A stretch of 64,000 nt of DNA from positions 1 through 64,000 of the forward strand of contig SHXX01000004.1 of assembly GCA_009693165.1 (NCBI GenBank), given 5' to 3'. This DNA is from Chloroflexota bacterium (GTDB lineage Bacteria > Chloroflexota > UBA11872 > UBA12225). The notes under the pieces are model-generated. The model did no database searches. It was not told where the DNA came from and saw only the letters and a list, made by a program, of their open reading frames with translations. Numbering within the stretch: the first letter of the stretch is position 1; each line of letters starts with the position of its first letter. Made by a program: the position numbers and the translations under genes. Below, piece after piece: positions 23,871 through 25,835 of this stretch.

Positions 23871-24374
23871 TCAATCCGTAGCGAGGCGATGCGTCGCGCG
23901 GGAAAAATAGAGAAGCGGGTTGGGGGATGACGCAAGATCGGTGCCACACTCGACAACTTCACCGATCAGGATCACGTGTGTCGTCCCGCCGGGGTGTTTT
24001 GCGACCACCCGGCAATCGAGCCACGCGAGGCTGTTTCGAATCAGTGGCGAGCCTGTTTTGCCTGGTTCTACGCGCTCGCCCGAAGCGGCGAACTTGTCCT
24101 CTATTGATCCCTCCATGCCAGCAAAGACCCTGAAGGTCCGTTGCTGATCCTGCGTGAGGACGTTCACGCTAAACGCGCCTGAAGCCTCGATGGCACCGAG
24201 TGACCTGGACCGCTGATCGACACAGACCAGGATGGTTGGCGGATCGGCCGAGACTGACGTAAACGAACTCGCCACGAGGCCCACGTAGCGGCCATCGTGT
24301 CCCGCGCCAACGACTGTCACACCGGTCGCCCACCGGCTCATCACCTCGCGGAATGCCTGCTTCACGTCGGACAT
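23871..24374 (-). CDS. Flavin reductase domain protein (FMN-binding)
   Basis: A 167-residue protein of the flavin reductase-like (split-barrel) family. The pattern REVMSRWATGVTVVGAG, GLVASSFTSVSADPPTILVCVDQRSRSL, and GAFSVNVLTQDQQ is characteristic, and the terminal HVILIGEVVECG matches the second conserved half. Such proteins reduce FMN or FAD with NAD(P)H to supply a monooxygenase, or serve as flavoprotein oxidoreductases. No monooxygenase gene is adjacent. It is divergent from nadA, with 198 nt between the start codons that contain a Rex-type palindrome, so both genes could respond to the NADH/NAD+ ratio. Confidence 0.88.
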   Translation of the reverse strand: MSDVKQAFREVMSRWATGVTVVGAGHDGRYVGLVASSFTSVSADPPTILVCVDQRSRSLGAIEASGAFSVNVLTQDQQRTFRVFAGMEGSIEDKFAASGERVEPGKTGSPLIRNSLAWLDCRVVAKHPGGTTHVILIGEVVECGTDLASSPNPLLYFSRATHRLATD

Positions 24375-24474: not shown

Positions 24475-24506
24475 TTGATACATCGAGCCCGCACGCCTGC
24501 TAACAT
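24475..24506 (+). promoter_or_regulatory. Candidate nadA promoter
   Basis: TTGATA (24475-24480) and an extended -10 TG-C-TAACAT (24501-24506 for the hexamer) lie upstream of nadA. Spacing is 20 nt, which is long, so recognition may rest mostly on the extended -10. The predicted start near 24513 lies just before the palindrome at 24521. Confidence 0.35.
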
Positions 24507-24520
24507 AGAGGATACAGTAC

Positions 24521-24540
24521 TTTGTGAAAATTTTCACAAA
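24521..24540. promoter_or_regulatory. Rex-type operator upstream of nadA
   Basis: TTTGTGAAAATTTTCACAAA is a perfect 20-bp palindrome. It contains TTGTGAA-n4-TTCACAA, an exact match to the known binding consensus of the redox repressor Rex. It lies 33 nt upstream of the nadA ATG and just after the predicted transcription start, a position suited to repression. Rex binds DNA when NAD+ is high relative to NADH. Confidence 0.75.
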
Positions 24541-24572
24541 ATCAAAGGCTACTCAGAAGGACGCCTACGCGA

Positions 24573-25835
24573 ATGTCAGCGGACCCCGTCACCGTCGCCA
24601 TCCCAACTGGTGTGCTCGTTGCCGGCTCTCCCAAGGGGGGGTCAAGCCCGATTGTCGCCGCCGGCGACGAGGCGTGTGGCTACGAATACAGCTATGCCGA
24701 CCTTTTCACGGAACGTCTCCGGGCAGCTGGTCAAGCAATTTCGACAGTGCAAGCGCCACTTCCCCCTGAATACATCCATATGTCACCCGAAGAACTTGAC
24801 ACCCGCATCTATCGCGCGAAATCAGTTCTGGGTGACCGCTTATTCATACTCGGTCATCACTACCAACGCGATGAGATCATCAAGTTTGCCGACGCCCGGG
24901 GTGACAGCTTCAAGTTGTCCCAACTGGCGGCGGCGAGGCCCACGGCTTCACACCTTGTGTTTTGCGGCGTGCATTTCATGGCGGAGAGTGCCGACATCCT
25001 CTCGGGTGCGAACCAGCAGGTCATCCTGCCAAACCTGTCGGCGGGGTGCTCGATGGCGGACATGGCTTCCACTGACGACGTATTGGCGTGTTGGGACCAA
25101 CTGACGTCGGAACTTGGCGACGACCACGGGATCATTCCCGTGACATACATGAACTCGGCGGCTGCCCTCAAGGCGTTCTGCGGACACCATGGTGGGATTG
25201 TGTGCACGAGTTCCAACGCTCGCTCGGTGCTGAACTGGGCGTTCGAGCGTGGGCGTCGTGTGCTTTTCTTCCCTGATCAGCATCTTGGCCGGAACACGGC
25301 GCTTGCAATGGGCATCCCCATTGAGGAAATGGCTTTATGGACGCCTGGCGCCTACCTCGGAGGTCAGAAACCTGAGGCACTGGAACGTTCTCGGGTCATC
25401 CTTTGGCGAGGCCACTGCTCAGTTCATGGTCGCTTCCGTCCCGAGCAGATCACAGCTGCGCGCTCATCAGACCCGGACGTCAAGATCATTGTTCATCCCG
25501 AATGCCCACGGGAGGTTGTGGACCGTGCCGATCACGTTGGCTCGACGGAATACATCATCAAGGTGGTTACGGAGGCTCCCAATGGGACGTCATGGGCAGT
25601 CGGCACGGAAATTCACCTGGTGAACCGGCTTCAGTCCGAATTGCCGGGCAAGCGCGTCGTCTGCCTGGACCCTGTGGTGTGCCCCTGTAGCACCATGTAC
25701 CGCGTCCACCCGGCGTATCTTGCCTGGGCGCTCGACAACCTTGTTTCAGGCAATGTGGTCAATCGAGTTCAAGTCGACGAGACGGTCGCCCAATGGGCCC
25801 GGATTGCGCTTGACAGAATGCTCGCAGTGCCCTGA
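24573..25835 (+). CDS. nadA: Quinolinate synthase
   Basis: A 420-residue [4Fe-4S] enzyme that condenses iminoaspartate with dihydroxyacetone phosphate to form quinolinate, the precursor of NAD. Signature segments include LFILGHHYQRDEIIKFADARGDSFKLSQLAA, FCGVHFMAESADIL with a cluster cysteine, NLSAGCSMADM, YMNSAAALKAFCGHHGGIVCTSSNA, HPECPREVVDRADHVGSTEYI, and the terminal VVCPCSTMYR with another ligand cysteine. The first 60 residues form an extension beyond the minimal ~300-residue enzyme, as in the longer NadA subgroup. GAAGGA precedes the ATG. nadB and nadC are not adjacent. A Rex-type operator precedes it. Confidence 0.95.
   Translation: MSADPVTVAIPTGVLVAGSPKGGSSPIVAAGDEACGYEYSYADLFTERLRAAGQAISTVQAPLPPEYIHMSPEELDTRIYRAKSVLGDRLFILGHHYQRDEIIKFADARGDSFKLSQLAAARPTASHLVFCGVHFMAESADILSGANQQVILPNLSAGCSMADMASTDDVLACWDQLTSELGDDHGIIPVTYMNSAAALKAFCGHHGGIVCTSSNARSVLNWAFERGRRVLFFPDQHLGRNTALAMGIPIEEMALWTPGAYLGGQKPEALERSRVILWRGHCSVHGRFRPEQITAARSSDPDVKIIVHPECPREVVDRADHVGSTEYIIKVVTEAPNGTSWAVGTEIHLVNRLQSELPGKRVVCLDPVVCPCSTMYRVHPAYLAWALDNLVSGNVVNRVQVDETVAQWARIALDRMLAVP

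Follow-up and report, generated by a model that had tools for sequence, protein, structure and literature searches.

A predicted Rex operator before the quinolinate synthase gene nadA in an uncultured order of Chloroflexota

Results

A perfect Rex-type palindrome before nadA

A 20-bp palindrome just upstream of nadA is, with a probability that we put at about 0.9, an operator from which the regulator Rex would repress nadA, and from which Rex would be released when NADH/NAD+ is high. This reading is supported by the conservation of the palindrome at nadA throughout the order, and by the occurrence of the same motif before respiratory genes.

The palindrome, TTTGTGAAAATTTTCACAAA, occupies positions 24521..24540 (no strand assigned) of the window, by which we mean the whole 64-kb stretch of DNA analysed here, and it ranks second by length among the perfect palindromes of that window. 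Its core, at 24522-24539, reads TTGTGAA-AATT-TTCACAA, which has no mismatches against the Rex consensus TTGTGAANNNNTTCACAA quoted, in the form TTGTGAA-N4-TTCACAA, in PMC6391272 and PMC5355995. Under a first-order Markov model of the window, a perfect core of this form is expected 2e-4 times in 64 kb and 0.007 times in the 2.22-Mb assembly. The assembly contains exactly one, the site at nadA, and no match to the reversed control pattern. The perfect Rex-type palindrome described in the initial annotation is thus confirmed, and it is the sole perfect site of the assembly.

The gene that follows, nadA (24573..25835, + strand), is an open reading frame encoding a quinolinate synthase of 420 aa that matches TIGR00550 and NF006884, the former scoring 315 bits (cut-off 263). 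It is apparently monocistronic, and clpX converges on it from the other side. The gap from the end of the palindrome to the nadA ATG is 33 bp, and within it we read a likely Shine-Dalgarno sequence, AGAAGGA (24555..24561, + strand); AAGGACGCCTAC, in the same region, is retained in four congeners.

It is important to know where the palindrome lies relative to the promoter, which the initial annotation had placed upstream of it. A scan with the two-hexamer sigma-70 consensus detected no nadA promoter, so that the promoter we predict rests on the comparison of relatives. That comparison supports the proposed location: at each of the nine nadA loci of the order, an extended -10 element of the form TGnTAnnnT, here TGCTAACAT (24498..24506, + strand), precedes the operator by 15-16 bp. 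If transcription starts some 7 bases past this element, the operator would span about +8 to +26 relative to the nadA transcription start. A site downstream of the predicted extended -10 is in a position suited to repression.

Conservation across the order

The comparison within the order comprises nine genomes with this nadA, drawn from five genera and two families, whose NadA proteins are as little as 67% identical. In every one of the nine, a perfect core precedes nadA at a distance of 19-36 bp from its likely start, which bears out the conservation upstream of nadA that the initial annotation proposed to look for. The 7-base arms are invariant in all nine sites, and the flanks and the N4 centre vary. 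Among four congeners 61% of the intergenic columns are invariant; across genera, the flanks of the site are not recognisably alike. Two members of the family that have no match to nadA (G002 and G003) likewise lack the perfect site.

Outside the order the association is not seen in one further family of the class, f5, which has Rex and a NadA that is 56-59% identical, and no site at nadA; the link between Rex and nadA is therefore a trait of the order rather than of the class. The closest named relatives of this NadA are mostly Chloroflexi MAGs, with up to 65% identity, and among 80 named nadA relatives a one-mismatch site occurs nearby in two, both acidobacterial. These acidobacterial one-mismatch Rex-type palindromes lie near the nadA start (two at L089:3800 and 3905, one at L096:3201). 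We also observe that the NadA proteins of families f3 and f4 are quite different (about 35% identity) from those of f1, f2 and f5, a divergence that points to nadA having been replaced within the class.

The initial annotation had raised the possibility that a divergent flavin reductase gene shares control by the palindrome. This neighbour of nadA (23871..24374, - strand; PF01613, 3e-44) is found beside nadA in genera g1, g2 and g5, and it is divergent from it in g1, in G005 (54% identity) and in G001 (45%). The stretches around nadA of G004 (genus g4) and of family f2 yielded no such gene. Because the operator stays before nadA where the flavin reductase is not nearby, the operator follows nadA, and shared control gains no support from the comparison; joint control of the flavin reductase is possible in the other genera.

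The same motif before respiratory genes

The initial annotation had also proposed to look for the motif at ndh, cydAB or adhE-type genes; we find it before the respiratory genes petB, nuoA, coxBA and atpB. The assembly of the window has two sites with one mismatch, at petB and at a plastocyanin-like gene, and two with two mismatches. The site at petB, which encodes cytochrome b of the bc complex, is TTGTGAAGAACTTCACGA; its form, TTGTGAA-N4-TTCACGA, is also present in three congeners and in G002, a genome of another genus. At nuoA, which is followed by nuoB, the site TTGTGACGGACTGCACAA (L005:1501-1518, equal to G000:C97:32543-32560) has two mismatches and lies about 104 bp before the gene, between nuoA and a divergent gene; in two congeners the corresponding position carries a one-mismatch form. 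In the sister family f2 the sole perfect sites besides that of nadA precede coxBA and atpB, and in a genome of another family (G029) a perfect site precedes nuoA, with rex adjoining. Several sites of this candidate regulon have a -10-like hexamer immediately upstream. Rex sites at the nuo and atp operons have been footprinted in Streptomyces (PMC5355995).

Taken together, these sites probably belong to one Rex regulon in the order, which would join NAD synthesis to complex I, the bc complex, the terminal oxidase and ATP synthase, and in which the operator of nadA is the strictest.

A number of further occurrences were noted. The nuoA site also faces the divergent gene, which encodes a class-V aminotransferase resembling cysteine desulfurase. 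Given that NadA is an iron-sulphur enzyme, joint control of this gene from the nuoA site would be of interest. The one-mismatch site just upstream of the gene for the plastocyanin-like lipoprotein (G000:C107:64693-64710; L182:2994-3011) is contained in a longer inverted repeat, CGCCGGACTTTGTGA-AGACTA-TCACAAAGTCCGGCG, and may be an operator or a hairpin. Genomes of genus g8 (L196-L207) have about one perfect TTGTGAA-N4-TTCACAA each; one such site (L215:4470-4487) lies between a gene for a MarR-type regulator and a fabZ-like gene. Since the g8 sites may belong to the MarR-type regulator, we left them out of the evidence for Rex. The one-mismatch sites of G001, G004 and G005 were not assigned to the regulon, as most of them fall within predicted ORFs or close to genes whose function is unrelated or unknown. 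Many contigs of the window's assembly also carry a repeated element with TTGTGCAGCCCTTCCCTA, in at least 10 copies.

The rex gene

Looking for a rex gene in the genome had been suggested as a check on the Rex reading. The window's own assembly, which is 82% complete, yielded none. Among relatives, all three congeners have rex (PF06971), as do 7 of the 9 genomes in the family and 38 of the 41 in the class. The 13-kb stretch around rex in the congener G007 is matched in G008 (91-97%), in G006 (75-80%) and, in pieces, in G002, and this whole neighbourhood has no match in the window's assembly. Since that assembly is incomplete, and at 2.2 Mb smaller than those of its congeners (3.3-3.5 Mb), the likeliest reading is that the rex region was simply not assembled; a true loss of rex is possible. 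A second genome, G004 (77% complete), has the nadA site and, as assembled, yielded no rex.

Where it occurs in relatives, the protein has the domains PF06971 and PF02629, and the Rex of a congener matches the NCBIfam Rex models. The Rex of G001 resembles that of Thermus (3ikt/3ikv) over the recognition helix and the residues after it, TAAQVRRDLAYFGSFGKRGVGY against TAFQVRKDLSYFGSYGTRGVGY, with 17 of 22 residues identical. No operator with two or fewer mismatches was seen at the seven rex loci of the family, so that autoregulation of rex is not evident.

Alternative readers of the palindrome

The palindrome contains TGTGA-N6-TCACA, and a regulator of the CRP/FNR type that reads this element had therefore to be weighed. 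The core fits exactly, each congener has one CRP-type protein (helix ATRESVNK), and some of the one-mismatch sites are of a looser form, TTGTGA-N6-TCACAA, lying no more than a few kb from CRP-type genes (in G001 and G005). However, the inner A and T, which the CRP core leaves unspecified, are kept in all nine nadA sites. The site is downstream of the predicted -10 in the nine loci rather than at or upstream of the -35, whence a CRP/FNR-type protein would activate; an activator does not work from such a position, though repression is possible. As with rex, no CRP-type helix-turn-helix turned up in the assembly of the window. The motif before petB, nuoA, coxBA and atpB also speaks against a CRP-type reader, since nuo, cox, atp and petB genes form the repertoire of Rex. 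We consider this alternative improbable. A dedicated regulator of NAD synthesis is less credible still. The gene nadA is a usual target of regulators of the NrtR, NiaR and NadQ types, yet the motif precedes respiratory genes, which the regulators of NAD synthesis are not known to control. MsNrtR is described in PMC6800001.

The palindrome might instead act as RNA, as a hairpin in the nadA leader that serves as an attenuator, a stabiliser or part of a riboswitch. It would be transcribed, and it is able to fold back on itself (-11.5 kcal/mol, z -1.73). Of 8 aligned sites, 6 have T-A or C-G as the pair flanking the core, a pattern equally expected of a palindromic operator, and only 3 keep the second outer pair. 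The invariant 7-base arms offer no compensatory change among the nine sequences, the leader has no match in Rfam, and the same sequence is met again upstream of unrelated genes, which argues against a hairpin. We regard an RNA function as very unlikely, and retain the reading of the palindrome as a Rex operator.

Discussion

The action of Rex at this site can be pictured as follows. When NAD+ is dominant, Rex bound just past the extended -10 would block RNA polymerase at nadA. When respiration is limited and NADH/NAD+ rises, NADH would release Rex, which would lift repression from nadA and at the same time from part of the respiratory chain: petB of the bc complex and nuoA of NADH dehydrogenase, joined in sister lineages by coxBA and atpB. 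In this scheme we infer both the binding of Rex to the nadA site and the existence of rex in the organism's own genome, and the direction in which NADH acts is taken from the established biology of Rex elsewhere. A feedback loop on NAD through Rex and nadA, as the initial annotation envisaged, is plausible but indirect, because Rex would respond to the ratio of NADH to NAD+ and not to the size of the NAD pool.

Control of NAD synthesis by Rex is already known, and what is new here, and well supported by the genome comparison, is its instance in the present order. NAD synthesis is among the conserved targets of Rex (PMC6391272). In Clostridium acetobutylicum the nadA operon was predicted as a Rex target (PMC3828012), and it is reported to have Rex sites and to be upregulated in a rex mutant (PMC5050335). 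As with nadABC of that species, the promoter of the gene that opens de novo NAD synthesis has a Rex-type site here; unlike nadABC, nadA apparently stands alone, in an uncultured, probably Chloroflexota order, as part of what would be a respiratory Rex regulon. The resemblance to the Rex regulon of Streptomyces (nuoA-N, atp, cydAB, rex-hem) lies in the operator consensus and in the nuo and atp targets, whereas petB, coxBA and nadA are additions, and the rex loci we examined have no autoregulatory site. Our literature searches for Rex in Chloroflexi returned nothing useful.

The general picture of Rex is unchanged by these results. They extend the control of NAD synthesis by Rex from the clostridia to an uncultured, probably respiring order, and, if the proposed regulon is true, a rise in NADH/NAD+ would enlarge both the electron sink and the supply of NAD. 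For organisms known from metagenomes only, this would be a compact and testable regulon.
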